Source: Parapedobacter tibetensis (lineage in GTDB: Bacteria; Bacteroidota; Bacteroidia; Sphingobacteriales; Sphingobacteriaceae). Taken from it: 64,000 bases of DNA. The translations under genes were made by a program, and so were the position numbers. The stretch spans positions 62,001 to 126,000 of the forward strand of contig NZ_JAMXBE010000011.1 of the NCBI RefSeq assembly GCF_024704835.1, written 5' to 3'. Below, piece by piece: positions 690-33,299 of the stretch. The notes below the pieces were generated by a model. That model did no database searches, had not been told where the DNA came from, and saw only the letters and a program-made list of their open reading frames with translations. Every line of letters starts with the position of its first letter. Position 1 is the stretch's first letter.

Positions 690-1439
690 ATGAAGAAAAC
701 CATTATATTAATTACCCTCATCGCATGGCATGTTATATTACATGCAGCCAATCCACCCCACAAATATGTACGCATTATCACTTCCAAAGGCGAATGCCTG
801 TTGAAGTTGTACGAAGAAACGCCATTACATCGTGATAATTTCACCAAATTAGTCCGTGAGGGATATTATAAGGACTTGTTATTCCACCGTGTCATCCAAA
901 ATTTCATGATTCAAGGGGGCGATCCCAATTCTCGGTATGCCGCAGAGCGGCAACGCTTGGGAGAAGATGGGCCAGACTATACCATTCCCGCCGAATTCAA
1001 CGATAGCCTCTTCCATAAGAAAGGGGTTATAGCAGCAGCACGCGATAATAATCCTGAAAAGGCTTCAAGTGGATCCCAGTTTTATCTTGTACAAGGGCGT
1101 ATATTTACGGATAGGGGCCTAGATAGTTTGGAGCAAATGCGCCTTGGTGGACGCAAAATCCCCTCGTACCAACGCCAAGTGTATAAAATGCTTGGTGGCG
1201 TGCCCCATCTCGATCAAAATTATACTGTTTTTGGTGAGTTGATTTCAGGGGTGTCGGTAATCGATAGTATTGCTACAGTAAACACTGATCCGAACGACCG
1301 ACCGCTGGAAAACCAACGTATGGATATGTATTTGCTTACTAGGAGAGAAGCCATTAACCTTGAGCGGGAGCTAGCTGGTTTCGAACCCAAAAACAACATA
1401 TTGACTAAATTTTTAGATTTATTCAAGCCAAAATATTAA
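690..1439 (+). CDS. Exported cyclophilin-type peptidyl-prolyl isomerase
   Basis: This 249-residue protein catalyses cis-trans isomerisation of X-Pro bonds, helping exported proteins fold. An N-terminal hydrophobic stretch ending at HAA (about residue 20) is a Sec signal peptide, so it should act in the periplasm. The cyclophilin core is clear. FHRVIQNFMIQGGDP near residues 65-80 contains the catalytic Arg and the Phe and Gln of the active site, and SSGSQFYLVQG follows near residue 130. A charged insertion after the second motif and an extra C-terminal tail make it longer than minimal cyclophilins, which is common in Bacteroidota. The next gene, exonuclease III, starts about 70 bp downstream on the same strand. 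The assignment is secure; client proteins are unknown. Confidence 0.93.
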   Translation: MKKTIILITLIAWHVILHAANPPHKYVRIITSKGECLLKLYEETPLHRDNFTKLVREGYYKDLLFHRVIQNFMIQGGDPNSRYAAERQRLGEDGPDYTIPAEFNDSLFHKKGVIAAARDNNPEKASSGSQFYLVQGRIFTDRGLDSLEQMRLGGRKIPSYQRQVYKMLGGVPHLDQNYTVFGELISGVSVIDSIATVNTDPNDRPLENQRMDMYLLTRREAINLERELAGFEPKNNILTKFLDLFKPKY

Positions 1440-13106: not shown

Positions 13107-14354
13107 CTATGTCATCACAATTACCCTCCTTCCTACTATCCGAAACCGGATGGAACCTGTTAGTGCTATGGTGCCCAATAAGGTTTCAAAATCTTCAAAT
13201 CTTGAAATGGTGCCCCCAAAATACTTATTTGTCATATCGCCTTGGTATTCCACTTCAATATCATACCATCGTGCGATGGTGGTCATTACGTAGGTGATGT
13301 GCTCATCCGAAAAGGCGAAATAGCCATTTTTCCAAGCGATGGCATTGGTTGGATCTACTTGTGCGACCTGAATGATATTGCTACCCCTTTTGACGGTAGC
13401 TTCCTCGTTGGGATTTAGGATACGGTGTATGGATTCATTCGGTCTTGAGGTAGTGGCTGATACTTTTACACGGCCTTCGAGCAAGGTAGTTTTTACGGTT
13501 TCTCCATCATTATAGGCATTGATATTGAAATGAGTGCCAAGGACTTCCACAGTTTGCGTCTTGGTTTTGACGAGGAATGGTAGATGGAACGCGGATTGGG
13601 CGGATGACTGACTGCTAACCTCAAAATACGCTTCTCCTTCGAGTTCGACTATTCTTTTATTTCCAATAAACTGCGTGGGGTACGTTAATGTGGATGCCGC
13701 ATTGAGCCATACCTTGGTACCATCGGGTAATATCATCCGCTGTTCACCCCCGTTCGGCGTGCTGATGGTGTTGTATACGACCTCTTTTACCTGTGTCGTA
13801 TGAATGGATTCATAGAAAAGTTGTCCCTCTGCTGTCTTCACAATCCGCATGCCTGATTCCTCGGCGATACGCCCAGAACTGATTTCATCCAAATTGATGG
13901 TTCTGCCATTGGACAAGGTAAGGATTGCCTTTTCACCACCTGGTACGATAGCATCTGAAAGCACCGTTTTGTCTAATTGTTCGTCTTTCGTATTATCATT
14001 GGTAGAACGATCGTGCAGAAAAAACAGCATGCCTATGCAAAGCAATGCAGCCACTCCCGCTGTCCACCGCCAAATGGCTGGCTGGATTAGCCTGCTCGAT
14101 TTTGGTTGCTTTATTGGTGGGTTAGCCTGTACTCTTGGGTCGTTGAGGATGCTTCGATACATGGAATCACTTTGGGCGGACATCGGTGTATCGCTATTTA
14201 AATCGTGCCACAGGCTGTCAATGACAGCATTCAAATCACCCTCCGTGTCGGTCTGCAACATATACTGTTTCAATTCCAACAGTTCATCGGCACTAATTTG
14301 ATTGCTCATATATCCTTGAAGCAGCTGGCGTAACCGTGCTTTGTCAAATTCCAT
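13107..14354 (-). CDS. FecR-family anti-sigma factor (locus A)
   Basis: This 415-residue inner-membrane regulator relays occupancy of the SusC transducer to the ECF sigma factor. The cytosolic N-terminal part (about 1-90) should hold the sigma. A single membrane helix follows near residues 92-112 (WRWTAGVAALLCIGMLFFL). The periplasmic FecR domain contains GGEQRMILPDGTKVWLNAAS. The C-terminal DUF4974-type domain ends with FRIVGRRVIVMT and would contact the STN domain of the transducer. It lies between sigma and SusC on the same strand, 126 bp after the sigma gene. The assignment is secure; the sensing direction (activation or inhibition) is inferred from family members. Confidence 0.94.
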   Translation of the reverse strand: MEFDKARLRQLLQGYMSNQISADELLELKQYMLQTDTEGDLNAVIDSLWHDLNSDTPMSAQSDSMYRSILNDPRVQANPPIKQPKSSRLIQPAIWRWTAGVAALLCIGMLFFLHDRSTNDNTKDEQLDKTVLSDAIVPGGEKAILTLSNGRTINLDEISSGRIAEESGMRIVKTAEGQLFYESIHTTQVKEVVYNTISTPNGGEQRMILPDGTKVWLNAASTLTYPTQFIGNKRIVELEGEAYFEVSSQSSAQSAFHLPFLVKTKTQTVEVLGTHFNINAYNDGETVKTTLLEGRVKVSATTSRPNESIHRILNPNEEATVKRGSNIIQVAQVDPTNAIAWKNGYFAFSDEHITYVMTTIARWYDIEVEYQGDMTNKYFGGTISRFEDFETLLGTIALTGSIRFRIVGRRVIVMT

Positions 14355-14480
14355 GCAATGTCCTTCTCAAGTTTATCATATGGTCCATCAGATTTATGAG
14401 GGTTACCTATACAATAAACGGATGAGGGATGCCAGAGGACTAGTGGGGCATCTATTTTTTTATTGGGGGGAAAATCGTGT

Positions 14481-15068
14481 TCATCCGATTAACAGAAACA
14501 GCGACAGCAGAAAAGTCATATTATGTTTGCTGAAGTGCAGTTTTAAGGTTTTCAATGCACTCACCATATGATTTCTTACGGTATTAGGTGAAATGTGTAA
14601 GCGTTCGGCAATTTCGTCATATGACAACCCTTCTTTGCGGCTCAGGGTGAAAACAGTCTGTTGTTGGGTTGGCAACGCTTTGATGGTCTCTTCTGTAAAC
14701 CGATTCAAATCTTCGAATATGATAGTTTCTTCGGTATTATTGGTATGGGTCTCCATGTAGCGGCTCAAATAGTCTTTTGCGCTAGCCTCCGACAATTTTT
14801 TCCGAAAATGGTCAATGGTTAGCCTTCTCGCCGTCAAGTAAACATAAGGATACAACGGTTGGGTCTCGTTGAGTTTGCCCCGATGGAGCCACAGTGCCAC
14901 AAATGTTTCCTGAAGCAATTCTTCGGTCTTTGCGGTATCTTTAACCAACGATTGGATTAGCCGATAGATTCGCCCGTGCAGTTGATTGTAGATGGCACGG
15001 AAAGCCGCCTCCTCTCCGTCCTGTAGGCGGGTGATTAGTTCGGGGGCGATTTCTACATGGGTAGACAT
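14481..15068 (-). CDS. ECF RNA polymerase sigma factor (locus A)
   Basis: This 195-residue extracytoplasmic-function sigma factor of the Bacteroidota FecI-like type probably drives the locus A SusCD operon. The sigma-70 region 2 is around residues 20-90 (LYPYVYLTARRLTIDHFRKK as its end). Region 4 is around 130-185, with EGLSYDEIAERLHISPNTVRNHMVSA-type helix-turn-helix sequence. The ATG at 15068 (MSTHVEIAPEL) is preferred to a TTG two codons earlier. It is the first gene of the sigma-FecR-SusC-SusD-EEP-GH29 series and has a promoter-like sequence upstream. Confidence 0.94.
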   Translation of the reverse strand: MSTHVEIAPELITRLQDGEEAAFRAIYNQLHGRIYRLIQSLVKDTAKTEELLQETFVALWLHRGKLNETQPLYPYVYLTARRLTIDHFRKKLSEASAKDYLSRYMETHTNNTEETIIFEDLNRFTEETIKALPTQQQTVFTLSRKEGLSYDEIAERLHISPNTVRNHMVSALKTLKLHFSKHNMTFLLSLFLLIG

Positions 15069-16739: not shown

Positions 16740-19346
16740 TTAGAAGACACACGCAATAATTTCCCCTCCTTCGCTCGGCTTCAGATCGCTGAATTCCCGC
16801 CAGATTCCTGTGTCCGGATCACCAACCCTCATCAGGTAGGTCGATTCGTTAAACACTTTCGGTTTAAATGTTGGGCTTTCTACGCGAAGCGAATACACCA
16901 GTTCGCCATTTTCCTGATCGATTATTTCAACGACTGGACTTTCCAGGTTTTCCAGCTGAAGTTCGGGCAGGTAACCGATCGCCTTGCGTGCATAGTTATC
17001 CTGCTGCGCAATGGTCATCGGCCATCCTTGGTATTGTCCATCCAGTTCTTTTTCCGGGTCGGCATACCGGGGCCAGCATTCCACTTGGATGCTTTGGGCT
17101 TCCTTATCAAACGTAACGATCCCGTAACCGGTGGAACGGTCGTAAATGATAGCAGGCTCCCGGTTCGTTTGCCGTGGGTTGGCCACCGCATGGATGGTCA
17201 TCCGGTTCCCGAATCCGTCGAAAAAATCGCCAGTGTATGCCGGTTGGCCGTTGAGTGGCCTGTGGTTTTCGGTCACGGGCGGCCACCAGCGCCTCGGGAA
17301 AATATTATTCAGTGCCGGCCCGGCGAAGGCATATCCGGCATCGCCGAATTCTTCTATACCATAGTGCACCATACTGGCCAGGTGTTGGTCTCCTGCGATA
17401 TGGAAGGCAAAGCATTTCCGGATCAGCTTCAGTGCCTCATCGCGCCCGCGCTGCGGCCAACCGTTTGAATCCATATCGGCCGTGGGCGCATCACCCGGAA
17501 TGTATTCGCCTTGCTTCGGTACTGGAAGTTTGGGGACGATGCTGTCGATAACACTCCCTTGGGGTAGGGTGGCCACGGTGCAGAAATTGGTCTGCGAAAG
17601 TACCGCTTTCATTTTTATACCCTGCTTCCAATCTTTCGACCATTCCTCCAGGAAATGCAGCTGGCGATCACCCAACAAGTCTGCATCGATATCGTAATGT
17701 GCTTTGATGTCAAAATCCCGATTCTGTGTAAAACCATTGAGTACATTGGCTTCCCCGGGCAACGCATTTTTGGGCGCTGTTTTGAACTTCCGGTCTTCCA
17801 GGATCGCAAAACCCACGCCTCCGTAATTCCAATTGGTGTAGTACACCCCGATTCCTTGCTCCACAGGGGTGGGATCGTAAGGATCGGGGAGATGGCTGGT
17901 TTGCGTCTGCTGCATCATGTTTACCCAGGCTGCGGGCATTTTATACCCACCCTGATCTTGAGCCACATAATTCCAACCTTCATTGGTTGGAGCAGCCTTG
18001 CCGCCTTCTCCCCATACATTACCATGGTACGCATCATGGTCGTCCGGGATGATGGCCGCGGGGATGTGCCTGAAGATATCGCGGTACGACCACCCGAACA
18101 TGTACCACTTGCGCAGGTAATCCAACGTGGCGCGGTCTAACGGAGCGGTTTCGATACCGAACCCGCCGGTCGATTCATAAAACTGGTCGCCTAGGAAAAG
18201 GGCCAGGTCCGGGCGGTGTTTGGCCACATGCCGGCCTACCTCGGTGTCGGGGAATCCAAAATCGCCGTTGCAGCTGAATACCGCCGCTTTAAGCCCCTCT
18301 TCGCCTACGGGCTCACCGGCGATGCTCCCCTCGTAAAAATAGGTTTCGGTTCCCCTGCCAAGGGGGAGTTGCACCCGAACCCGGTAGGGCACGGTTTGTT
18401 CGTACGCCCAGTTGTCTGCCCGAAACCGGGCGATGCGCCCCTGGCCGTCTACCCGGCTGTCCTGCACGGGATCCCAGCTATCGCCGGGTTTTATTTCTAG
18501 GGTGACCCGGTGGCCGGCTATGGTCTCTATGGGGGTTAGCTGGGCAGTGAGTTTAAGTACCTTATTGTGCAGGGTGTACTGTGCGAAACATACCGGGCCG
18601 AAAACCTGATCGGGATGGTGATCCACCTTTGTCCCGCTGATCTTCCAATCGGCAAAAGCAGCCGAAGGATATAATTCGGCTGTTTTCTCGGCCTCCAAAA
18701 AATGTGATATTAGGGCGATGTTGCCCGTGAGGCGATGCCGGGGTATGTCGCCAACCTCCATTTCGGCCAATTGTCTGTCGCCGTCAGCGCTCTTGGCGGC
18801 CAAGTGTATCCGATAGGCCCCACCACGGGGTTCGGCCCGCAAGATTAGTTGGCACGTCCCACTCGGGGATAAACTGGCGGATACCTTGCGATCACCGATA
18901 AATAAATCGCCCGCTGCGGTAATCCCGGTATCCAGTCCCTTCCCGAAGACCGTGGCAGACCGATAGTCGGCAAACGGGCCTTTCGCCCCCAAGCGGATCC
19001 CAACATATTCCATACCGGCATTTCGCCCCTTGCTAAACAGGTGCACCTGTACCGAAACCTCGAACACTTCCATACGGTCGCTAAGCTGGCAAGTAAGGCA
19101 ATGTAGGGTGCGGTTTTTCCCGGTCACCACGCAAACCGCACGCCCGTCCTGAAGCTCCCAGTCCTGCAGGCGATTGCCCCAATACTCCGGGCCTACCCAG
19201 CGTATGTTTGGCCAGTGATGCCACTGACTTGCGAAGTCCGCCGCATCGGTTGTCGTTTTATTGTTCGCTTTCTTGGTGTCCGCGAGTAACGCGGATGGGG
19301 CTACCATGGCAACGCCGATGGTTTTGATCGCATTTCTTCTTTTCAT
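16740..19346 (-). CDS. PhoD-type alkaline phosphatase/phosphodiesterase, Tat-exported
   Basis: This 868-residue metallophosphatase belongs to the PhoD family. The chosen ATG at 19346 gives [20 protein letters not shown], a twin-arginine-like signal. The reading frame extends 60 codons further upstream, but only into the shadow of a sulfatase relic. An N-terminal beta-sandwich region (about 40-330) precedes the catalytic domain. That domain shows [29 protein letters not shown] and [10 protein letters not shown], the metal-ligand motifs of PhoD-like enzymes. At 868 residues it is much longer than typical PhoD because of the N-terminal part. It is the last gene of locus B. A truncated copy of its 5' end sits at 23158-23211, so this gene was once duplicated with its sulfatase neighbour. 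Confidence 0.88.
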
Positions 19347-19359
19347 TTCTTCGTTTCGA

Positions 19360-19893
19360 TTTGTTTGCTTTAGCGATATCTGAATTATAAAAACTAGTGT
19401 CCTGCTCGAAATCCGTGGCATTGACCCAAGGCGATTCCATTTCTTCCCCGGCCATATATCGCTCATAAAAATCCCGATTATTCTTGGCAAAATAAGGGTA
19501 TTCGTCAAATATATGGCCTTTTCCAAACATCCGCGGATCTCCTTCGTCCCTTAATTTTTCAAACAGGAGTTCCTTTAAGCTTAACCTAACGGAATCATGG
19601 GCCGCTTCATTCGCCAGATTTCGGCCAGTGAGGATACTGGCCCTGGAAGGCGCACATTTGGCATTGGGGGTATACGCGTTCGTAAATAAAACCCCCTCGG
19701 CGACCACGCGGTCAAATGCCGGGGTCTGCAGCCACTCGCATCCGTACGCACTCATATAGGGAAAAGATGCATCATCCGCCAATGCGAATAAGATATTGGA
19801 TCGCTTGGGCTTTTCCTCTTGGTTTTCGCGGTCACTTTTATGTGAATACGATATTTCCATCTGGAGAAGTGAGTTTAATATTTTTCTGCGCAA
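19360..19893 (-). pseudogene. Sulfatase relic with a large internal deletion
   Basis: This frame starts with a Cys-type sulfatase N-terminus ([15 protein letters not shown], then the [13 protein letters not shown] modification motif) and jumps at about 19618 straight to the sulfatase C-terminal end ([20 protein letters not shown]). Compared with the intact paralogue at 23208-24815, the equivalent of residues 89-449 is missing, about 361 residues. Most of the substrate-binding and metal-binding residues are thus lost. Its signal peptide is gone too, replaced by out-of-frame GH97 sequence. The normal stop is lost and the frame runs on to 19258, overlapping the PhoD start. It cannot be an active sulfatase. 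Confidence 0.9.
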
Positions 19894-19951
19894 ATGCTGG
19901 TATTGTGCATGCCACTAAAAAAATAGTGAAGATATTGCTTAAAACGTTCAT
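19838..19951 (-). pseudogene. 5' head of a lost GH97 glycoside hydrolase gene
   Basis: A 37-codon frame starts at ATG 19951 with a signal peptide ([20 protein letters not shown], cleavage after AQ). It continues [15 protein letters not shown], the typical mature N-terminus of family GH97 (alpha-glucosidase/alpha-galactosidase). A stop at 19838 then interrupts it and the sequence passes into the sulfatase relic in a different frame. The remaining ~600 residues of a GH97 are absent. This is a deletion junction rather than a gene. Confidence 0.7.
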
Positions 19952-20111
19952 AATATTGCGATTCCGTTGATTCGACTCTTTGCGTTTATTGACATGCAAT
20001 ATAATAAAACCGTCCGAATCGTGCTAATCGTCGCAATTTAATGCCGTTTTATAATTTTTAAGGATAAGCTTCTAATTCTTTGACAACAGGCTTAAGGTCT
20101 GCATCGGCTTC

Positions 20112-21737
20112 TTATTTCTCCTTCGACGTTGCCGACAAATAGCTGTCGATGTATTTTTGATCGTTCGCATCCGAGTCCTTATACTTTTTGCGAAGCTCAT
20201 CCAGCTTTGTATGCATTTCTTCCCGGATGCCCTTATAAGATGGATCATCGTACACATTGTGCATCTCATGCGGATCCTTCTCCAGGTCATATAGTTCCCA
20301 CTCGTCGATATCGTAATAGAAATGGATCAGTTTGTAGCGGTCCGTACGGATACCATAGTGGCGCTTGACCATGTGGATTGATGGATATTCGTAGTAGGTA
20401 TAATAGATGGCATCCCGCCAATCCTTCGTTTTCCCTGATACCAGCTCCCTGAACGATTCGCCTTGCATGTCTGCCGGAATCTGCGACCCAGCATAGTCCA
20501 GGAATGTCGGCGCGAAATCCAGATTCTGTACCAGTGCATCGAGCTTCGTGCCTGCCTTGATCTCTTTTGGATAGCGGATCATCAGTGGTGTACGGAGCGA
20601 TTCTTCATACATGAACCGCTTATCGAACCAACCATGCTCACCCATGTAGAAGCCCTGGTCTGATGTATATATCACAATTGTATTTTCATCCAGCCCGTTT
20701 TCTTTCAAGTAGTCCAGCATCCTGCCCACCCCATCGTCCACAGCGGCGATCGTTGCCAAGTAGTCCTGCATGTAGCGCTGGTAACGCCACCGCATCACAT
20801 CTTCCTCCGACATCGAAGGGTAGCGCTTCTTGAAATCCTCGTTGATCGGATCGTAAACTGCATCCCATGCCACACGCTGGGACGAATCCATCCGCCCTAG
20901 GTTATTATTGTAGGCATTTTTATCCCAGTTCAACGTACTCGGTATACCCAATTCATCCATCACCTCCGGTTTGATCTTCGAATCACCTGCCCAGTTCATG
21001 TCTTTAAGGATATTCATCTCGGCCGATTTAGCGGCCGTACCGCGGTCCTCATAGTCATCGAACAAGGTCTCCGGTTCCGGAAATTTCATCTTGGTGTATT
21101 CTTGATAATGCCGCTCGGCAGGTAGCCATTCGCGATGAGGGGCTTTCTGATGATACAATAAACAGAACGGCTTGTCCTTATCCCGTCCTTCCAGCCATTC
21201 CAGCGCCAAGTCCGTCGTGATATCGGTTACATAGCCGTGTATCTGTTCCTTCTTGCCGTTTACGATGAAATCCGGATTGTAATACTGCCCCTGCCCCGGC
21301 ACCACCGCGGAATAGTCAAACCCCTGTGGCAAACCATCCATGTGGATCTTGCCCACCATGGCTGTCTGGTAGCCAGCACGCTGGAGCAATTTGGGAAAAT
21401 TGTCCTGCTCCCAGTTGAAATGCTGCACGTTGTCCACTTTACCGTTAAGAAAACTATGTTTGCCCGTCAACAGCACAGCCCGACTTGGCGCACACAATGA
21501 ATTGGTCACCGTTGCGCGCGTGAAAAGTGCTCCTTCGGCCGCAATCCGGTCTATGTTCGGCGTTTTATTTATTCCGTAGCCATAGGCGCTCACCGCCTGG
21601 TAGCCATGGTCGTCGCTCATGATGTAAACAATATTGGGACGTACGTCCTTCTTGTTTTCAGGTTGTGCACAAGACATAACAGCCCCTACAATGATAAATC
21701 CTATGGAATGCCAAACGCTAACAGTTGTTCTCATCAT
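20112..21737 (-). CDS. Type I sulfatase, lipoprotein
   Basis: This 541-residue formylglycine-dependent sulfate ester hydrolase has a signal ending VMSC (Cys23), suggesting lipid anchoring. RPNIVYIMSDDHG carries the Ca2+-ligand Asp pair. The modification motif is LCAPSRAVLLTGKH with Cys82 to be converted to formylglycine. Later motifs are GYQTAMVGKIHMDG and VIYTSDQGFYMGEHGWFDKR, the second metal site. NSLCAPSRAVLLTGKHS and the FPKLLQRAGYQTAMVGK run resemble sulfatases of the S1_11 type (GlcNAc-6-sulfatase-like), but subfamily assignment from memory is weak. Its start overlaps the stop of the next sulfatase upstream by 4 bp (ATGA), so the two are translationally coupled. Confidence 0.92.
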   Translation of the reverse strand: MMRTTVSVWHSIGFIIVGAVMSCAQPENKKDVRPNIVYIMSDDHGYQAVSAYGYGINKTPNIDRIAAEGALFTRATVTNSLCAPSRAVLLTGKHSFLNGKVDNVQHFNWEQDNFPKLLQRAGYQTAMVGKIHMDGLPQGFDYSAVVPGQGQYYNPDFIVNGKKEQIHGYVTDITTDLALEWLEGRDKDKPFCLLYHQKAPHREWLPAERHYQEYTKMKFPEPETLFDDYEDRGTAAKSAEMNILKDMNWAGDSKIKPEVMDELGIPSTLNWDKNAYNNNLGRMDSSQRVAWDAVYDPINEDFKKRYPSMSEEDVMRWRYQRYMQDYLATIAAVDDGVGRMLDYLKENGLDENTIVIYTSDQGFYMGEHGWFDKRFMYEESLRTPLMIRYPKEIKAGTKLDALVQNLDFAPTFLDYAGSQIPADMQGESFRELVSGKTKDWRDAIYYTYYEYPSIHMVKRHYGIRTDRYKLIHFYYDIDEWELYDLEKDPHEMHNVYDDPSYKGIREEMHTKLDELRKKYKDSDANDQKYIDSYLSATSKEK

Positions 21738-23110
21738 CGTTGTACGCTATTGAGCCACGATTTGTGCAGGTTGAATAATTCCATTACTTTTTCCGGATGT
21801 TTTTCAGCGAGATTTATTGCCTCACCGATATCTGATGGTAAATGTACCAAAAATAGCCGGTCTTTCCCATTGAAGTCCGCATTCCACTTAGGATTAGGAT
21901 CCGTGGGATTGCCCAATAATTTCCAGTCCCCCTTCCGCACAGCCCAGCTGCTGGTACTGTCATCATAGGATCCGGTCTGCCAATGCAACTCACGCGGTGG
22001 TGCGTCCCGGTGGTTTTCCATCAGGAGAGGGAGCAAATTGACACCTTCAACCCCCTCTTGCTCGTACTTAGCGCCGGTGATGGTAACGATTGTAGGAAAC
22101 CAATCCATTCCAGATGCAACAACATCACTCTCCACTCCTTTGGGAACAAGCTTTGGATAGCTAATGATCGCCGGCACTCTGATCCCTCCCTCGAACATAC
22201 TGAATTTGCCGCCGCGATAAGGACCGGAATTCCCGCCCCCAAAAAATGCACGTTCTTCGTAGGAATGGCCGTGATCTGATTGGAACACAATTACTGTGTT
22301 CTCCAGCTGTCCAGTTTCTTCCAGTTTTTTCATTACCTGTCCGATGCGTTCATCCAGAGTCGATACAAACGCAGCGTACTCCTTTCGAGGCGAGGCAAGG
22401 TTTTTATAATAATCCAGCCACTTTTGTGTGCCTTGATAGGGATAATGTGGCACATTGGCTGCCCAATAAATAAAAAAGGGCTGACTCCGCCTTTGGTCGA
22501 TAATCGCATTGATTTCCGTTACCATTAAGTCCGGAAAATAAGCTCCTGGTCTGTACAGCTCCTGTTCATTTTGGTATAAATCATGTTTGTTTGGGCCACT
22601 CCAAAAAAAGAAATGAGAATAGTTATCAATACAACCCCGCTGATGGCCGAAAAAATAGTCGAACCCCTGTGCATTTGGAAGTTTGTCCGGTGCGTGGCCT
22701 AAGTGCCACTTGCCCACCAGCGCTGTATAGTAGCCATTGCTTTTCAGCATTTCCGCCATGGTTACTTCCGAAGAGGGCAATCCTCTGGTCATGCCAGGGT
22801 CCTTTTCCGGAATGGGCACATTCCCTGGCAATCCCGCTCCCAGGTTAGATTTTCCTGTCAATAGTCCCGCTCGGGAGGGGGAGCATACCGGCGCAACAGC
22901 ATAGAATTGGGTGAACCGAATGCCGTTGCTGGCTAAACGGTCGAGGTTTGGCGTTGCCAAGTCATCCGCCCCATAGAAGTTCAAATCCATGGTTCCCAAA
23001 TCATCGGCCAAAATAACAATGACATTTGGCCTGGATTGTGCCCAAACTATCGTATTAAGGCCATTTAATATGACCAATCCAATGAATACAATTCTCTTTA
23101 ATTTTCCCAT
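21734..23110 (-). CDS. Type I sulfatase (arylsulfatase A-like)
   Basis: This 458-residue exported sulfatase has a Sec signal ending IVWAQ. RPNVIVILADDLG provides the first metal ligands. The active-site motif is VCSPSRAGLLTGKS with Cys76 as the formylglycine residue. YYTALVGKWHLGH and IVFQSDHGHS follow. The overall pattern (LNFYGADDLATPNLDRLA, GFDYFFGHQRGCIDNYSH) is that of arylsulfatase A-like enzymes. It lies directly downstream of a deletion scar that holds the last codons of a lost SusD gene, so it formerly followed a SusD gene. It overlaps the next sulfatase by 4 bp. The sulfate position and sugar cannot be read from sequence. Confidence 0.92.
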   Translation of the reverse strand: MGKLKRIVFIGLVILNGLNTIVWAQSRPNVIVILADDLGTMDLNFYGADDLATPNLDRLASNGIRFTQFYAVAPVCSPSRAGLLTGKSNLGAGLPGNVPIPEKDPGMTRGLPSSEVTMAEMLKSNGYYTALVGKWHLGHAPDKLPNAQGFDYFFGHQRGCIDNYSHFFFWSGPNKHDLYQNEQELYRPGAYFPDLMVTEINAIIDQRRSQPFFIYWAANVPHYPYQGTQKWLDYYKNLASPRKEYAAFVSTLDERIGQVMKKLEETGQLENTVIVFQSDHGHSYEERAFFGGGNSGPYRGGKFSMFEGGIRVPAIISYPKLVPKGVESDVVASGMDWFPTIVTITGAKYEQEGVEGVNLLPLLMENHRDAPPRELHWQTGSYDDSTSSWAVRKGDWKLLGNPTDPNPKWNADFNGKDRLFLVHLPSDIGEAINLAEKHPEKVMELFNLHKSWLNSVQR

Positions 23111-23125
23111 TTTTAAACAACTTAT

Positions 23126-23167
23126 TTACCAATTAGGGTTTTGCTCGAGTTCGGGGTTCAAATCACT
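23126..23167 (-). pseudogene. C-terminal tail of a vanished SusD gene
   Basis: The codons just before the TAA at 23126-23128 read DLNPELEQNPNW, the characteristic terminal motif of SusD proteins (compare NPLMEQNPGYQ and NPALGQNPGW elsewhere in the window). Nothing else of a SusD gene is present. This tail is joined directly to a PhoD 5' fragment, marking a deletion. Confidence 0.75.
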
Positions 23168-23211
23168 ATCATCGCAACGCCGATGGTTTTGATCGCATTT
23201 CTCCGTTTCAT
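23158..23211 (-). pseudogene. Truncated 5' end of a second PhoD gene
   Basis: ATG 23211 opens a 17-codon frame, [17 protein letters not shown], whose first 14 residues are identical to the PhoD start at 19346. Homology stops near codon 15 and a TGA at 23158-23160 follows. The ATG overlaps the sulfatase stop (ATGA), which shows the original sulfatase-PhoD translational coupling. It is a scar, not a functional gene. Confidence 0.85.
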
Positions 23212-24815
23212 TTATTTGCTTTTGCGGTATCTGAACTATAAAAACTCGTATCCGGTTCGAAATCGGTGGCATTGACCCAAGGCGATTCCATTTCCTCCCC
23301 GGCCATATATCGCTCGTAAAAATTCCGGTTATTTTTGGCAAAATAAAGATATTCGTCAAACACATGGCCTTCACCGGCCATCCGCGGATCTTCTTCTTCC
23401 CTCAATTTTTCAAACAGCAGTGCCTTCAATGCCATTCTAGTGGAATCATAGCTCGCCTTGCTCGCCAAGTTCTGTACGCATTCCGGATCCGTATCGATCC
23501 GGTATAGTTCTTCTTGGGGCCTCCTCCCAAAGGATTGATCCCAGTAGCGATCCACTCCTGTTTGCCTTCGTCGGTTTAGGATCACCGTTTTCGTCGGGCT
23601 GCCATCGGTATTCAGGTAACCCGTTTCTGGATTGCCCGCGGGCCACCGTGCCGTTTCGAAGTTATGCAAGTAGATAAATCCATCCTTCACGATCCCCCGG
23701 ATGGGATATCCCCAGTCATGTGGCCTCCCCACATCATGGCGTTCCTTGCCGATCAGCACGAAATCCCGGTCGGGGTCAATTTGGCCGGATGAATCACTGT
23801 AAAAAATATCCGTGAGGCTGCTACCTGTAATTGGCTCCATGCCGCTTGCTGCCGCTGAGATACCTGCCAGTTCCAGAAAAGTTGGCGCCAGGTCTACGAA
23901 GCTGACCAGATCGTGCACCTGCCGGCCTGGTTTTTTGATCCCGTCTGCCCACATCACGGCAAGCGGCAGGTGGTTGGAATATTCATACGCTTGCCCCTTA
24001 ATGCGAGGAAACGGCATGCCGTTGTCCGCCGTTACCACCACTAAGGTATTCTCCAGTTCGCCCCGTTCTTCCAGCAATTCGAGCATCTGCTGCAAATGCC
24101 TGTCGAAATGCTCCAGCTCAAACGCATAATCCAGCATGTCGGCCCTTACGGTATCATTGTCGGGCCAAAAATCCGGCACCTTCGTGATGTCGCCAACCTG
24201 CTTACCGCCTTTTTCAATACCTGATCTAAACTCATAGCCCCGGTGCGGCTCGGTTGATCCATACCAAAAACAGAAGGGTTCGCCATCGGGCTTTGCATCC
24301 AGGAACGCTTTGAAATTTCCCGCGTAATCGTTGGTGTTGATGCCTGTAGTGGGTGCGGCAAGCGTATGCTGGTTGTATGCCTTGCCCGTGAGCTGCCGTT
24401 TTGCGCCGTTTACCTCGCCCGGATCACCGGGCGCCCAGCCTTTGGCTGTATAACCGGTATGGTAGCCGTGTGCCGTCAGGGCCTCCGCATACGTTTTGAA
24501 CTTAGCCGGGAAGAACGCCCCATGGTTTGCGGCTTCTTCCAGCTGCCAGGAGTTTCTACCGGTAAGGATACTCGCCCTGGAGGGTGCACATTTGGCGTTG
24601 GGCGTATACGCGTTGGTAAACAAAATACCCTCCTCGGCTACCCGGTCAAATGCAGGAGTTTGCAACCAATCGCTCCCCATCATATACGCATAAGAAGCAT
24701 CATCCGCCAATGCGAATAAAATATTGGGTTTCTTGGGCTTTCCCTTTTGGCCTTCGCCCATGGAGCAAGCCACCAAACCGAGTGTGAGCGTAAAAAAGAG
24801 CAGTTTTTTCTTCAT
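23208..24815 (-). CDS. Type I sulfatase, lipoprotein (intact paralogue of the relic)
   Basis: This 535-residue sulfatase has a lipobox LVACS (Cys17). [17 protein letters not shown] contains the first metal ligands. [16 protein letters not shown] holds Cys76, the formylglycine site. [13 protein letters not shown] and [15 protein letters not shown] follow, and [16 protein letters not shown] provides the second metal site. Its N- and C-terminal ends match the deleted relic at 19360-19893 closely, in protein and in DNA. It is the functional member of that duplicated pair, and it lost the PhoD partner that once followed it. The 13-bp gap to the upstream sulfatase fits one operon. The sugar specificity is unknown; heparan-type or other uronate-linked substrates are possible. 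Confidence 0.92.
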
Positions 24816-26346: not shown

Positions 26347-28431
26347 CTATAATTTCACCCCCATTTCGTCAAATCTAGCGGCAGCATTCAGAAAATGTGC
26401 CGTGATCCAGAATACCGTCCACGATTCGGCATAGCCGCCGCGCAGTGCATAAACATCCGTGACTTCGCCCCGCTGCGCAAAGTTTGTCTGCTGCAGTTGT
26501 TCGCCCTGGCTACCGGAGGGGTCAATCAATTGGCCACAGCTGAGAAACATGATTTTTGCTAGCTGCTGTAACCGTGGATCATCCAGATATTCGCCTAACT
26601 TGTATATTTCTGGGCTATACAATACGCCATAGATATCGACGTGCTGGTTCTGGGGCGACACAACGGTCCACCCCCGGGTTTTCAACCCATGGTCGGCAAG
26701 CCTGCCCGGAGGCAGCGGGATGTCCCATACCACCGTGTAGCTCAGGCATACCTCGCCCGCGTGTTTGGCCCACGCGAGGTACTTTTTTTCATCCAGGTGT
26801 TCGTACAGCGTTAAGAAACCCTGGAAAGCCGCCCATGCCCCCTCCTTGTCTTCACCTGTGGCATCCAGCGTGCCGCCCCAGTAGGGTTCTTCCATCGAAA
26901 GGTGCCTATCCGCATAATGGGTTGCTGCCTTGACCGCCGCATCCTTGTACGACGCTGTACCGAACAGCGAATGGGCAATGATCAACGGGGCGATATAAAA
27001 TCCCTCCGCTGTGGAGCGGGGGTACCACTTTGGATCGAGGATGCGCGCCGAGGCGAAATCACACGCCTCAATCAGAAACGCCTCCCACTTGGCCGACTGG
27101 TATTGCCCGTTGGCTCGGGCCGACCGTATGGCACTGGCGAAATTATACATGGCCTGCCCCACGGAAACATGATCACTTTTGGTCCATATTCCTTTGCGGA
27201 TGTTATAGTTTACTGAAAAGCCCGCCTCTTCAGACGGGTTGGTTGTGGTCAGAAAATCCAGCGACTTCTGCACCATCCGATGGATGTCGTGGTCATCCCC
27301 GGCTTGAAATTCCCGAAGATGTTGCAGTGAGTACCCCGGTGATGCCGCCTGACCGCACCAGCCCATCACGATGTGTTGACGATCTGCGGGTTCATACATG
27401 TTGAACCCCGCCACCGAATCGTCCTCAACATACCGGGATACCGCCATTCGGTATTTGGCTCCAACGATATCCGCGAACGCTGGCAATCCGCTATCGGAAT
27501 AGGGTTCATGGAGCTCCAACGCGTCGTACAGCGGCTTCTGGAAACCCGTGCCTTTGCGGGCTATCGGGAACACATCCAAATAAAAAGTTTTCTCGATGAC
27601 CATGCCAGGCGAGGCTGTAAAGTAAGTATCGTTGTACTCCACCGGGGCTTTTTGCGTGGCCTTCGCTACGCTGCGCCTGCCATTGTACCCCACCGGCCCC
27701 GAATACAAGACCAACTCACTGCTGCCGGAGTCTGCCAAGGCGCCCATTGACCACCAATGATCTGGGAGTCTTGGGTTCTTGACCGGGCTGGGGAGTGAAT
27801 GGACGGCTGCGCCGTATTTTTCCGCGCCGATACTGTTTTCGAGGGCAACAAAAGGCATGGGGAACCGATGCTCTTCAAACACCGCAAATTCACCGGGAAG
27901 TCCGTTGTATGATGGCACCCGACCGGGGGTGTTGGCCGTTCCAGACGGGTTGCCGTAATAGAGGATGCCCGGCATGAACACGGAGAGGTGCGCTCCCGGC
28001 ACACGCCAACGCACCGAAAGCGTCACCGAATCGAGGGCCTCCTCTCCGGTCCATTCATACCGTCTCACACACTTTACCAGCCCCTGTTCATATCGGTAGG
28101 CATCCCGGAAAATCCACTTGCCTTCCGGTAGATCCAACGAGCCTTCAAGGATATCCCAATCGCCCACTTGTTCATGCGACATAGCCTCGACATGCCGCCA
28201 TTCCGATGGCCAGTCCCCATCCCAGGCCGTCGCAATAGACCAAAGGCCTTCTTCCGGAGGTGATAGCTGGATGCCCGACACGCTTTTGACCAATGGAATA
28301 TATTGACCATCCTGCTGTTCAACTTCAAAACGGGCCTGTCCTTCAGTATCCGGCGTGCTTTGCGCCGCAACGATGCCGGACTGCACGGCCAGCCATAGAA
28401 AAATTAATGATAGTGAAGCCAATTGATGCAT
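26347..28431 (-). CDS. Unassigned exported protein with a predicted alpha/alpha-barrel
   Basis: I do not recognise the family. The ATG at 28431 gives MHQLASLSLIFLWLAVQSGI and a cleavage site at AAQS, so it is exported; the frame also extends 21 codons upstream without a signal. It is 694 residues. The first ~330 residues look like beta-sandwich sequence. The rest has the repeated aromatic-rich helices of a six-hairpin (alpha/alpha)6 barrel (for example WCGQAASPGYSLQHLREF, AAFQGFLTLYEHLDEKKYL and YAESWTVFWITAHFL). That architecture is common in glycoside hydrolases and polysaccharide lyases. Its position among sulfatases suggests a glycan-active enzyme. Catalytic residues cannot be named with confidence. 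Confidence 0.75.
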   Translation of the reverse strand: MHQLASLSLIFLWLAVQSGIVAAQSTPDTEGQARFEVEQQDGQYIPLVKSVSGIQLSPPEEGLWSIATAWDGDWPSEWRHVEAMSHEQVGDWDILEGSLDLPEGKWIFRDAYRYEQGLVKCVRRYEWTGEEALDSVTLSVRWRVPGAHLSVFMPGILYYGNPSGTANTPGRVPSYNGLPGEFAVFEEHRFPMPFVALENSIGAEKYGAAVHSLPSPVKNPRLPDHWWSMGALADSGSSELVLYSGPVGYNGRRSVAKATQKAPVEYNDTYFTASPGMVIEKTFYLDVFPIARKGTGFQKPLYDALELHEPYSDSGLPAFADIVGAKYRMAVSRYVEDDSVAGFNMYEPADRQHIVMGWCGQAASPGYSLQHLREFQAGDDHDIHRMVQKSLDFLTTTNPSEEAGFSVNYNIRKGIWTKSDHVSVGQAMYNFASAIRSARANGQYQSAKWEAFLIEACDFASARILDPKWYPRSTAEGFYIAPLIIAHSLFGTASYKDAAVKAATHYADRHLSMEEPYWGGTLDATGEDKEGAWAAFQGFLTLYEHLDEKKYLAWAKHAGEVCLSYTVVWDIPLPPGRLADHGLKTRGWTVVSPQNQHVDIYGVLYSPEIYKLGEYLDDPRLQQLAKIMFLSCGQLIDPSGSQGEQLQQTNFAQRGEVTDVYALRGGYAESWTVFWITAHFLNAAARFDEMGVKL

Positions 28432-28450
28432 GATCTGTTCTTTTTTAAAC

Positions 28451-30043
28451 TTAACGATGGGATTCCATTTTTTCCATTCGGCTCGTCCCGGCACGATCCC
28501 ATTTTTGCAACAACGCCCTCATCTCATCAACCATATCCGGGTAGTCATTCCACACATTACTCACTTCTTCAGGATCCCTGCTGAGATCATAGAGTTGCCC
28601 TTTGGGCCCTTCGGGTTGGGCCTCGATCGAAGCCGGACGGGAGAAACCGCCCGAACCAAGCGATTCGATCAATTTCCACCGCCCGCTTTGGATGCTCCTC
28701 ACCCCAAGGCTGGATACCGAGACAACCGGAGGACGAATAGCCACCTGTTCTGGCTGTTCTCCGGTCAGTACCGGCAATAAGCTGAAACTATCTTCACCGG
28801 CATCCGTCGGTAAATCCACGCCAACAATAGCTGCAAACGTCGCCATTACATCGGTGAACGATACAGTCTGGCCCGTTAGCGCCCCTGCCTTCACAACTCG
28901 TGGCCAACGCACAATAAAAGGCATATGGTGGCCTGCCTCATAGGTGTCGCCTTTCATTCCCCGATAGGAAACATACGATGTACTACCATCCTTTGCTAAC
29001 CGTATGCCTGCACTGGCATGGTGGCCAAAGCGTCGAGTGTCATGGAGATACCAGACCGGGCCGTTATCACTGGTAAAGATTACTAGCGTCTCGTCTGACA
29101 TACCGGTGCTATCAAGCGCAGAAAGGATTTTTCCGACCTCGGCGTCCACCGTCGCGACAAAATCGCCATATTCTCCCGCTCCACTTTTTCCGCGAAAATT
29201 ATCGGCGGGTAGCCAAGGGGTGTGTGGAGCAGGGAACGCTATATGCAAAAATAGCGGCTTATGAGCACTTCCCTTGGCATGATCTTCAATAACCTCAACC
29301 GCTTCTTCCGAGAATCGCGGCAATACATCAGCCAGATTCAACCCCGGCGCTATCCCCCCACCGCGCCAAAAGGCACCTTGAATGGGTGTCCAATCCGGAC
29401 TGTTATGATCTTCAATCGTATCAGTGGGAGGCGTAACCACGCGATCATTCCGAATAAAAAAATAAGGTGGAATATCCGTAGATGCTCGGATGCCGAAAAA
29501 GGAGTCGAACCCGCAATCTACGGGGCCTCCTGAAAGCCTTTGGCCTTGCTGATAGACGCGATATGCGGCCTTGCTGTTCCCGTCGTCAGACACGTGTTCT
29601 GTGCTTGCGGCGACAGCCTCGGATTCATCAAACCCCAAATGCCACTTCCCTACCATCGCCGTCCGGTACCCGTTCGATCGAAGCAGGGAGGCGATCGTCA
29701 TCCGGCCGGGCTCAATTACCGGCTTCTCCGGCCAAACACTTACATCCGTACGGAAAGGGTATCGGCCCGTGATCAATCCATAGCGTGAAGGATGGCAAAC
29801 GGCCCCCGGTGCATGGGCATCGGTAAAACGCATGCCTTCATTGGCCAACCGGTCGATATGGAGCGTCGGAATCTTAGCTTGCGCATTGTATGCGCCGACA
29901 TCCCCATAGCCCATATCATCCACTAAAATAATGACTATATTCGGACGTTCCCTACCCTTTTCCTGTCCAAATGAAGGCGTAACCAGTAAGACTAGTTGGC
30001 ATACAAAAAATAAATACCGACGCCTGTAAGCAAAACTCACCAT
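28451..30043 (-). CDS. Type I sulfatase
   Basis: This 530-residue sulfatase has a Sec signal ending SFGQ. RPNIVIILVDDMGYGDVG contains the first metal ligands. VCHPSRYGLITGRYPFRT has Cys83 with an unusual His at the variable position of C-x-P-S-R. YRTAMVGKWHLGFDE, FLHIAFPAPHTPWLP and VIFTSDNGPVWY follow. The CxPSRYGLITGRYPFR pattern is reminiscent of S1_15-type sulfatases (hexosamine or galactose 6-sulfate), with low confidence. It sits between the third GH-A paralogue (18 bp upstream) and the alpha/alpha-barrel gene (19 bp downstream), in one operon. Confidence 0.92.
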   Translation of the reverse strand: MVSFAYRRRYLFFVCQLVLLVTPSFGQEKGRERPNIVIILVDDMGYGDVGAYNAQAKIPTLHIDRLANEGMRFTDAHAPGAVCHPSRYGLITGRYPFRTDVSVWPEKPVIEPGRMTIASLLRSNGYRTAMVGKWHLGFDESEAVAASTEHVSDDGNSKAAYRVYQQGQRLSGGPVDCGFDSFFGIRASTDIPPYFFIRNDRVVTPPTDTIEDHNSPDWTPIQGAFWRGGGIAPGLNLADVLPRFSEEAVEVIEDHAKGSAHKPLFLHIAFPAPHTPWLPADNFRGKSGAGEYGDFVATVDAEVGKILSALDSTGMSDETLVIFTSDNGPVWYLHDTRRFGHHASAGIRLAKDGSTSYVSYRGMKGDTYEAGHHMPFIVRWPRVVKAGALTGQTVSFTDVMATFAAIVGVDLPTDAGEDSFSLLPVLTGEQPEQVAIRPPVVSVSSLGVRSIQSGRWKLIESLGSGGFSRPASIEAQPEGPKGQLYDLSRDPEEVSNVWNDYPDMVDEMRALLQKWDRAGTSRMEKMESHR

Positions 30044-30061: not shown

Positions 30062-31705
30062 CTACTTTGTAAACGTGATCTCATCCCAAGAGGCCGTTCC
30101 TGCGCCATTGTGCTCCAATGAGATAACCGCCCATTCGTTTCCGGCAACAAAGCTGACCTCCGCATGCACGTATTTCCCATCGGACTCCGCGTAGGTGACT
30201 TCCTTTTCTGCTTTCTCCTTCCCCAATACATCGAAACCCATGGCTCTCAGATTGGCTTTCGATGCCGCTCCAGTCAGCTTCACCCGGGCACAGAGTTTGT
30301 ACCGTTGCCCCGGTGTTAACCCTTCCACCAAGCGACGACACCTGTTCGCTGAAATTTGCGTTAAAGGACGAACGGGTTTGGACATCTTTAAATAGTTATT
30401 CCCCTTGAAGGCCCCGGACGGATCATTCTTGACAAAATCCACCGATTCCCATTCCTGCGGTACGGAGGTTTGCATGCCAATACGAGGGTTTCCTTTAAAG
30501 CATACCACCCACCCGCGCGATTTATCCGGATTAGCCTCCTCAAAGCCACCGTTTATACCATTCGATAACAAATGTGGCTCCAACCGCCAAAGCTCTTTAT
30601 AGGCTTGGTATTCCCGCTCATAGCGCTCGAATCCATTCGCCAAAGGGCGATTTTTGTCCAGTATATTGTACTCGCCGCCGTTGGCCTGCGACTTGATCAC
30701 TGCATACATCACGATATACTTGAAACCCAGCGCCTTCATTTGCACCAAATCGTTCCCTATCCACCGCGCTTTATAGGTACGGGCATCCGCTTCGGTGGCG
30801 CCCTCCCATACCTGCGGGAGTGTAAGCCGGGTGCCGTTCTCGTCCATCACCATGGGTCGACGGGGATATCCCATTTCCTCGGCTCGATCGATGATCCGCC
30901 AAACATCGGTACCGCCTTCGTTATGGCCATCTTCACCAATATCATTGTGCTTGTGTACCCCGAAATAGTCGCAATACTGGGTAATGCCACGTTCGGCCAG
31001 CTCCACGCCTTTGTCGATACGGCCACCGGAAATCGGGCAGGACAGCACGACAATTTCGGGATTCACGGCCTTTAGTGTCGTATACACCACTTCCTGTACC
31101 CGCATCACCTGATCGACTGTCAACGGCACACCATCCTCCCGCATACCGGGCAGAAAGGGCTCGTTCACTGCCGAGTAATAGAGCGGTTTTGTTCCGTAAT
31201 ATTTCCCGATCTCCTCCACCACGTACCGGGCATTCTCTTCCCAAACCGGCCCGAAGTTATCCGGATTGGCTACCACACGATCCAATCGCAGCTCCGTAGC
31301 ATACCGGATGCCCTCTTCATCCAGTCGTCTATAGATCGAATCCATATACGGAAAATCGATAAAACTACCCTTCCTCCGTTTTAATCTGTTAACTTCCAAC
31401 ACACCTACCGACTCACGCACGCCCCATACATCCAGGTCTTTCAGGTGTTTGATCACCCGCTCGCGCATGGGCTTGCCGTCCGCCGAATCTTTGCTCCGCG
31501 GGCGGTACCTGAAAAATTTCAAATTCGAATTGAACAGCAAGTTGCCCCGATAGGTTTCATCAACCGAAACTTGTGCGTTGCTTTTTTCTTCCGTAAGCCC
31601 ATCTGAGAGCTTATCCTGGCATTTGCTGAAAAACGGAAAAACGATAAAAAGTGCAAGGTACTTCACCAGCACCGGGAGCGATTTTCTATTTGTAGGTTTC
31701 ATCAT
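30062..31705 (-). CDS. Clan GH-A-like barrel protein with C-terminal carbohydrate-binding-like domain (paralogue 1)
   Basis: This 546-residue exported protein begins MMKPTNRKSLPVLVKYLALF, with a signal ending near FFSKC (a weak lipobox). A TIM-barrel region spans about 85-400. It shows two glutamates placed as in clan GH-A glycosidases: YYSAVNEP (Glu182, candidate acid/base) and MVMDENG (Glu289, candidate nucleophile). The C-terminal ~140 residues (INGGFEEANPDKSRGWVV onward, ending WDEITFTK) resemble a galactose-binding-like carbohydrate-binding module. Two paralogues lie at 36470 and 43160. Unlike those, this copy is followed by a sulfatase rather than SusC. I cannot place it in a numbered GH family; GH39-like is the nearest guess. 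The open frame runs further upstream into SusD, without signal-peptide support. Confidence 0.75.
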   Translation of the reverse strand: MMKPTNRKSLPVLVKYLALFIVFPFFSKCQDKLSDGLTEEKSNAQVSVDETYRGNLLFNSNLKFFRYRPRSKDSADGKPMRERVIKHLKDLDVWGVRESVGVLEVNRLKRRKGSFIDFPYMDSIYRRLDEEGIRYATELRLDRVVANPDNFGPVWEENARYVVEEIGKYYGTKPLYYSAVNEPFLPGMREDGVPLTVDQVMRVQEVVYTTLKAVNPEIVVLSCPISGGRIDKGVELAERGITQYCDYFGVHKHNDIGEDGHNEGGTDVWRIIDRAEEMGYPRRPMVMDENGTRLTLPQVWEGATEADARTYKARWIGNDLVQMKALGFKYIVMYAVIKSQANGGEYNILDKNRPLANGFERYEREYQAYKELWRLEPHLLSNGINGGFEEANPDKSRGWVVCFKGNPRIGMQTSVPQEWESVDFVKNDPSGAFKGNNYLKMSKPVRPLTQISANRCRRLVEGLTPGQRYKLCARVKLTGAASKANLRAMGFDVLGKEKAEKEVTYAESDGKYVHAEVSFVAGNEWAVISLEHNGAGTASWDEITFTK

Positions 31706-31733
31706 TTTGGTTTTTTTTAATTTAATCAATGTT

Positions 31734-33299
31734 TCAATACCCCTCGCTTTGTTCCAACTGGTCATTGGCTTCCAATTCTTGTTGAGGGATGGGTAAGTAA
31801 TTGTCGCGGGGAGCATAGTTGATGGTTCCCGACCTGACTTTTCCATAAGCAGCTAACTCATCCTCAACGATACCCCAGCGTTGCAGATCATACCACCGAT
31901 GGCCCTCGGCAAACAATTCCAAAAAGCGTTCCTCCCGGATCGCATCGCGGAGCTGGATTCCCGACAACCCCATAAGGTCTGCCGAAGGCTCGGGCGTATC
32001 CGGACTAAACCCGTGGGCCCGCCTTCTTACTTTATTCATGTATTCCAAGGCCTCGACATCGTTGCCTTGGGCCTGAAGCACCTCAGCATACATCAAATAC
32101 ACATCGGCCAAGCGCATCATGATCAGGTTTGCCCCATGGGTAAGGTTGGTGGAATAAACCGAATGGTCCAAGGGTACGTACTTCCTAAAGCTCCAACCCA
32201 GCGCACCGTCATCACCCACGTAAACCTGCAAAGGAATCTTAGCTCCCTTGTTGTCAAAAACCGAGTCCACGCCCGGCTCTAACGCTGCGATGCGTAGACG
32301 GGGATCATCTCCAAAGCGCTGGACATTCTTGTCGTGCGGATATACATTGCTCCATCCTGATCCCTTGGGAGCCATCACCAGCGAGGTCAGTGTTCCGGTA
32401 CCTCCGGCGCGCTCCTGCATGTCTACGCTGAAGTTGAGTTCGTAGAGCGATTCCGGGCTAAACTCGTTGGTTCCGCGGAACAGGGCATCGTACGCATCAT
32501 AGGGCTCCAATGAAAAAGCCCCGCTGCTAATCACCTCTTCGAAATACCCACGAGCCATCTCCCAGTTTTCCTGGTAGAGGTACGTCTTTCCCAAAAAACC
32601 TTTTGCCGCATACCGGTCTACCCGGGCAATGTTTTCGCCGCTCCAGGAATCCGGCAGCCGTTGCTCGGCTTCTTTAAAGTCGTTGACGATTTGCTGATAA
32701 ACTTCGGCAACGGAAGCCCGGGGCACAAACATGTCCTCCCGCGTTTCGGGCACTTCCAAAATCAGCGGAACGCCCCGCGTGCTACCGTTTCTTGCCGGAC
32801 TGTCTTCGCCCCACAAACGTATGAGGTGAAAATAGGCCAGCCCCCGTTGGAAATGGGCTTCACCTTTCATTTGCGAAACGCGTTCTTGCTCTTCCTCGGA
32901 AAGCTCGGTGCCTGCGGCAAATTGATCGCTTTGGGTTAAAAAATCATTCGCCCGTGCGATAATTCGGTACCAGCTTCGCCAGAAATCCCTAACCAGGCCG
33001 TTCTCCGGTGTCACGTTGTTTTGGTATAGCTGATTCCATGCATTATCCGCAATCCATTCCTGATCGGCCGTGTGAGCCAGGCCATACAAAGCCTTGGGCA
33101 CAAAATCCCGGCCGTAAAGCTCCCGGGTGGTTTGGGCGGAATACACCGCAGTAAGTGCCAGCTCCAGGTCTTGCATCTTCGTAAAGAAATTTTTCTCATC
33201 GATCTGATTGGGATTGGCAACGTCCAGAAAATTATCCGAGCACTGTGTTGATACCAAGCCTACACTCGCCAATACGATATATATCTTTAGTTTCTTCAT
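31734..33299 (-). CDS. SusD/RagB-family lipoprotein (locus B, unit 1)
   Basis: This 521-residue SusD-like surface lipoprotein starts at ATG 33299 (MKKLKIYIVLASVGLVSTQC), which places Cys20 in a lipobox-like position. An upstream in-frame ATG at 33335 would bury the signal. The SusD helical features include FQRGLAYFHLIRLWGEDSP, followed by MRLADVYLMYAEVLQAQG and the conserved ELFAEGHRWYDLQRWG. The protein ends YLPIPQQELEANDQLEQSEG, a divergent version of the usual NPxxxQNPGY tail. It follows its SusC partner with a 35-bp gap. It should bind the sulfated glycan at the surface and hand it to SusC. Confidence 0.94.
   Translation of the reverse strand: MKKLKIYIVLASVGLVSTQCSDNFLDVANPNQIDEKNFFTKMQDLELALTAVYSAQTTRELYGRDFVPKALYGLAHTADQEWIADNAWNQLYQNNVTPENGLVRDFWRSWYRIIARANDFLTQSDQFAAGTELSEEEQERVSQMKGEAHFQRGLAYFHLIRLWGEDSPARNGSTRGVPLILEVPETREDMFVPRASVAEVYQQIVNDFKEAEQRLPDSWSGENIARVDRYAAKGFLGKTYLYQENWEMARGYFEEVISSGAFSLEPYDAYDALFRGTNEFSPESLYELNFSVDMQERAGGTGTLTSLVMAPKGSGWSNVYPHDKNVQRFGDDPRLRIAALEPGVDSVFDNKGAKIPLQVYVGDDGALGWSFRKYVPLDHSVYSTNLTHGANLIMMRLADVYLMYAEVLQAQGNDVEALEYMNKVRRRAHGFSPDTPEPSADLMGLSGIQLRDAIREERFLELFAEGHRWYDLQRWGIVEDELAAYGKVRSGTINYAPRDNYLPIPQQELEANDQLEQSEGY

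Follow-up and report, generated by a model that had tools for sequence, protein, structure and literature searches.

Background

Bacteroidota have polysaccharide utilization loci which contain SusC/SusD pairs and sulfatases. Gene remnants which persist after a duplication, with one copy truncated by deletion, belong to the general course of pseudogene decay. The DNA analyzed here, 64,000 nucleotides of Parapedobacter tibetensis (assembly GCF_024704835.1, contig NZ_JAMXBE010000011.1, positions 62,001 to 126,000; hereafter, the window), likewise carries SusC/SusD genes, several PF00884 sulfatases, an alpha-L-fucosidase and an extracytoplasmic function (ECF) sigma factor, as found by profile searches. 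It differs from such loci in that the end of one unit seems to be fused to the body of another unit without its SusD. The genes in question are an intact sulfatase (copy A) and a relic sulfatase (copy B), both of which adjoin a start of a PhoD-like phosphatase gene. Two sulfatase-PhoD units were present here, most likely by a duplication in this lineage after its split from the congener G007, and were later trimmed by deletions; we hold this with some confidence, well short of certainty.

The process as such is ordinary gene decay, and the record of it is unusually clear. The features of pseudogene decay are a truncated copy with homologous ends, the loss of start and stop codons, and a few substitutions at invariant sites. 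The difference is that the scars described here also hold identifiable ends of two neighbouring genes, hence the extent of the losses is partly readable. In the titles and abstract openings of the literature, there was no account of such scars, nor of a sulfatase-PhoD pair in these loci. In passages of PMC7477175, PhoD is discussed as part of phosphorus metabolism and sulfatases as part of polysaccharide loci, the two separately.

Arrangement of the copies and contents of the junctions

All features of the locus lie on the minus strand and follow each other in the order sulfatase A, PhoD head, SusD tail, two intact sulfatases, GH97-like head, sulfatase B relic and intact PhoD. An earlier reading of the same DNA (the original prediction) had proposed that a sulfatase-PhoD pair was duplicated and that each copy then lost a different partner.

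Sulfatase A (23208..24815, 535 amino acids) would be the partner of the lost PhoD. It matches PF00884 with 129.4 bits over profile positions 1-301 of 301, and the motifs CAPSR (residue 76), DDAS, DNGMP and GKERHD are kept. We take the enzyme to be of the S1 type and C-x-P-S-R to be the formylglycine maturation site. At residues 45-48, two residues of the GAYG stretch have been lost, which are kept in the relic and in nearly all orthologues (Y in 98% of 43).

A second PhoD head of 14 codons (23170..23211) is ATGA-coupled to sulfatase A and was recognized by blastn and by reading of the sequence. As predicted, it is identical to the intact PhoD over 14 residues (3 of 42 bases differ) and is then broken. 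Directly after it follows DSDLNPELEQNPNW and then a stop codon; these last 14 codons plus stop (23126..23170) contain the SusD-type C-terminal motif LNPxLxQNPxW/Y and are read as the tail of a lost SusD gene. Using a matrix of 19 SusD C-termini from the same genome, for which 11 of 30 tails had been dropped by eye, the tail scored 24.0 bits and ranked second of 2557 stop-terminated window ends, the highest score in 60 null simulations being 15.1. The search was repeated with all 30 tails; the tail then ranked first at 25.5 bits, against 17.8 for the highest-scoring of 200 simulated 64-kb sequences.

If only the sulfatase and the first 14 PhoD codons had been copied, copy A would never have had a complete PhoD. 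Only a PhoD head is indeed seen, and a copied segment could end anywhere; however, the head abuts the SusD tail at 23170, which is explained directly by a deletion spanning two genes, whereas a partial copy would have had to land exactly there. Partial copying is thus considered improbable, and we infer that the PhoD of copy A was once complete.

A broken sulfatase does lie at 19360-19893, as had been predicted, but these bounds did not hold: the open frame is 19258-19893, running on into PhoD out of phase, and the sulfatase part is confined to 19360-19836. The proposed alignment of the two stretches was performed with blastn and returned two homologous blocks. Block 1 (window 19301-19616 against 23166-23467, 80.4% over 316 columns, E 4e-81) extends into the PhoD head; block 2 comprises 19619-19829 against 24553-24757 (79.6% over 211 columns, E 2e-46). 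On the protein level, the relic consists of a C-terminal block (residues 449-535, 19360..19620) with 78% amino acid identity to residues 448-535 of the intact copy, and of an N-terminal block (residues ~18-88 with CAPSR, 19621..19836) with 79% identity over residues 18-88. Both ends are sulfatase-like and the middle, residues 89-448, is missing in frame, with Asn88 joined to Asn449 and 361 codons gone, in agreement with the original prediction. For the short-homology recombination which it suggested, the join offers little: only ~4 bases are common (AACT in the intact copy, AATCT in the relic), a match too short to indicate how the deletion arose.

The damage to the relic goes beyond this gap. 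Residues 1 to ~18, including the start codon and the signal peptide, are missing as well, and no stop codon is present at the homologous place, where an insertion of ~14 bp (19346..19359) was found by comparison with the intact copy; it is a near-tandem repeat at the expected ATGA overlap of sulfatase and PhoD. PF00884 is matched with 57.2 bits at profile positions 2-103 of 301 only, hence the catalytic domain is incomplete. Two substitutions fall on near-invariant sites: the relic has S at a position which is P in 44 of 44 orthologues, and V at one which is A in 98% of 45. Neutral simulations with 38 substitutions kept the frame open in 18.7% of cases, hence the open frame was not used as a sign of function.

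Directly upstream of the relic, a head of 37 codons (19838..19951) shows a start codon, a signal-like stretch (the signal peptide was judged by eye) and an SPDGN-type N-terminal motif, after which the frame ends; the catalytic domain is absent. It was scored against a matrix of GH97 heads, which were obtained for 30 of 33 GH97 loci and of which 27 were used, including the closest homologue (L185). With this homologue, the score was 27.7 bits (null maximum 23.7 in 100 simulations); without it, the score was 21.2 bits, and one of 200 simulated 64-kb sequences was higher (21.9). The next-best score in the window was ~12. The head of the GH97 gene of a congener (L185/L194) is a near match to the fragment, and the nearest GH97 seen is that of congener G007, in an unrelated neighbourhood. 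No match of the fragment to Pfam was found at E 0.5. Judged from these comparisons, the support for a GH97 identity of the head is good but not overwhelming.

Both junction pieces, the SusD tail and the GH97-like head, had been missed before. Since they stand at the junctions, neighbouring genes were probably lost too, by multi-gene deletions, and the idea that each copy simply lost one partner had to be given up. According to the favoured duplication reading, two sulfatase-PhoD units would have arisen in the polysaccharide utilization region, with SusD and its neighbours lying between the copies, and both sulfatases would have been functional for most of their divergence. At least three later deletions would then have made the junctions: one beginning at codon 14 of PhoD A and reaching into the downstream SusD gene as far as its last 14 codons, one between codon 37 of the GH97-like gene and about residue 18 of sulfatase B, and one of residues 89-448 inside sulfatase B. 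The 14-bp insertion would have come to lie at the expected sulfatase B stop and PhoD overlap. Sulfatase A and PhoD B would be the survivors, one of each. Further, the two units may tentatively be seen as ends of two neighbouring clusters, each closing with sulfatase-PhoD and fused by deletions which removed the SusC/SusD and GH97 genes of the second cluster, leaving one working sulfatase and one working PhoD; this extension is possible, yet we would not count on it.

The genome is a draft of 85 contigs, which would leave room for an assembly artefact. The longest exact stretch common to both copies is, however, 29 bp, presumably too short to confuse assemblers; the contig has 208,676 bases with the site ~81 kb from its nearer end, and completeness and contamination of the assembly are 99.82 and 0.85. 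We regard an artefact as very improbable.

Divergence, constraint and timing

For the calculation of Ka/Ks, codons around the two-residue gap were dropped and 146 codon pairs were kept. Differences between the copies amount to 17/15/45 for the three codon positions, with Ka 0.100, Ks 0.782 (0.53-1.22) and Ka/Ks 0.128 (bootstrap 0.066-0.218). Orthologues were defined as matches over 480 bits, which gave 46 sequences. The relic was closer than the intact copy to 17 of them, equally close to 4 and further from 25. The copies differ at 28 sites; of these, 14 are better matched to the orthologues in the relic and 13 in the intact copy, and one is a tie. As the differences are mostly silent and the two copies lie at similar distances from the orthologues, both sulfatases were probably functional through most of the time since they separated. 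The copies are no recent duplicate; they have diverged for a long time under purifying selection.

In a 151-column tree with 46 rows, from which 2 of the 46 orthologues had been dropped for gaps, the copies grouped together against 44 orthologues with an ultrafast bootstrap of 100. Branch lengths were 0.075 (relic) and 0.123 (intact copy), and 0.086 and 0.100, respectively, in the full alignment. Long freedom from constraint should have lengthened the branch of the relic, which is not longer than that of the intact copy; the relic thus probably lost its function late, within a short final stretch of its history. The copies are 78-79% identical in amino acids, compared to at most 67% between the intact copy and any of the 46 orthologues, and they have a common C-terminal tail which six displayed orthologues do not match. 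The predicted duplication of a pair is upheld in so far as each of two sulfatases has a PhoD start in the same place, the survivors are complementary, and the grouping and the tail point in the same direction.

The silent divergence was calibrated with seven reciprocal best pairs between the genome and congener G007, a small number; of the six pairs printed, three are cluster genes of this window. The copies had a pS of 0.486, compared to a median of 0.807 (range 0.79-0.84) for the congener pairs. Since the value of the copies is lower, they would have separated after the species on that clock, in line with a duplication within this lineage. The amino acid clock gives no support for a late duplication and does not separate duplication from import. 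A calibration with a second congener (G003) was uninformative, as the stretches fetched contained no reciprocal pairs.

Horizontal transfer of a related cluster with its own diverged sulfatase-PhoD pair could also have brought in the second unit. A Ks of 0.78 is long for two copies in one genome, Ka is like that of congener pairs, the setting is rich in clusters (110 SusD matches in the genome), and the distribution of PhoD described below speaks for an acquired unit. However, the copies are nearer to each other than the intact one is to any orthologue, they have the C-terminal tail in common, and their silent divergence is below that of the congeners. Transfer is therefore taken as a rather unlikely source of the second unit.

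Distribution of PhoD, the tandem and the short form

The intact PhoD-like phosphatase gene (16740..19346, 868 amino acids), the survivor of the relic copy, is a predicted phosphatase by its match to PF09423 (32.7 bits, cut-off 27); NCBIfam gave no match. A full-length relative is found in genome G579 (61% over residues 1-865). At E 1e-60, PhoD was found in none of 300 other family genomes; at E 1e-40, 29 of 394 other genomes from across the phylum carried it. A plasmid search returned four records with 31-37%. Judged by this distribution, the sulfatase-PhoD unit was probably taken up first and doubled afterwards.

PhoD-like genes elsewhere in the phylum resemble the locus in having sulfatase neighbours: in 15 of the 29 loci in other genomes, a sulfatase match (E 1e-6) lies within ~1.5 kb of PhoD, always on the same strand. 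The difference is that these sulfatases match other sulfatases of the window best and not the duplicated one.

The search for the tandem covered 45 loci from genome contigs and 301 family, 395 phylum and 395 class genomes; loci were formed by matches above the stated E-values with flanks of ~1.5 kb. Among 192 loci, L103 was the sole one outside the own genome with both a sulfatase of the group above 300 bits (45%) and a PhoD, two genes apart in one gene cluster. Four genomes (G363, G430, G457 and G473) have both genes far apart or on different contigs, and two PhoD matches and one sulfatase match among them contain a stop codon.

A short form of the sulfatase was searched for at E 1e-22 with at most 11 candidates scored per genome. 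None was found: 12 matches in 11 of the 300 other family genomes all lie in full-length frames of 527-558 amino acids. The original prediction had named a short form conserved in relatives as the finding that would speak against a relic. For a working small protein under selection, the open frame, the low Ka/Ks and the kept CAPSR could be cited. The relic is, however, without its own start, signal peptide and homologous stop, most of the catalytic domain is gone, near-invariant sites are substituted, and these matches in relatives are all full-length; such a protein is most implausible.

Several results weigh against the duplication followed by deletions. No locus examined has this sulfatase directly beside this PhoD; the intact tandem, which the original prediction proposed to look for in related genomes, was not encountered. 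The parent of neither junction piece was found: the SusD tail is absent from the 30 of 110 SusD matches of the genome which were examined, and for the GH97-like head, DNA matches within the genome are at chance level only (19-28 bp, E 0.5-1). Nor are the 46 orthologues independent of each other, and the intact copy is the closer one for slightly more of them than the relic. Finally, six of the congener pairs span Ka values of 0.082-0.133, which include the 0.100 between the copies.

Genomic setting

Two further intact sulfatases, both on the minus strand, lie between the scars. One (21734..23110, PF00884) directly follows the SusD tail, the other (20112..21737) matches PF00884 and PF16347. The latter has a 70% relative at L145:13477-15033 (G000 C24) on a contig of 16,548 bases, beside which no match to the SusC, SusD or other sulfatases of the window was found.

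The sulfatase region is flanked by window 690-1439 and by L270:7049-9850 (G000 C3:133049-135850), both of which match one neighbourhood of congener G007 (C1:1172493 and, inverted, 1178512-1175758). The two flanks are ~2.5 kb apart in G007 and ~70 kb apart here, which makes the region look like an insertion specific to this lineage and accompanied by rearrangement. Sigma/FecR genes at 13107-15068 have partial matches (56-66%) beside that spot in G007, thus the 70 kb are not all new.

Within the clusters, three related genes (30062-31846, 36470-38104 and 43160-44797) are repeated with ~70-72% DNA identity in their aligned parts; they had no Pfam match above cut-off and no NCBIfam match. A protein of 715 amino acids encoded at 26347-28494 inside the sulfatase cluster, for which Pfam and NCBIfam gave no match either, may be a carbohydrate enzyme that has gone unrecognised. 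No tRNA was found when the 64-kb window was scanned.

Implications

Clusters for the degradation of sulfated sugars differ among related bacteria, and a single sequence rarely shows how they are rebuilt. In this locus, the scars name genes which were lost, and the substitution pattern suggests that both sulfatases were functional for a long time before one of them was trimmed. The frequent proximity of PhoD and sulfatases may hint at joint work of the two enzymes, an idea which can be tested. If two clusters were indeed fused, the locus would show, in readable form, a cluster fusion under selection for retaining one sulfatase and one PhoD.

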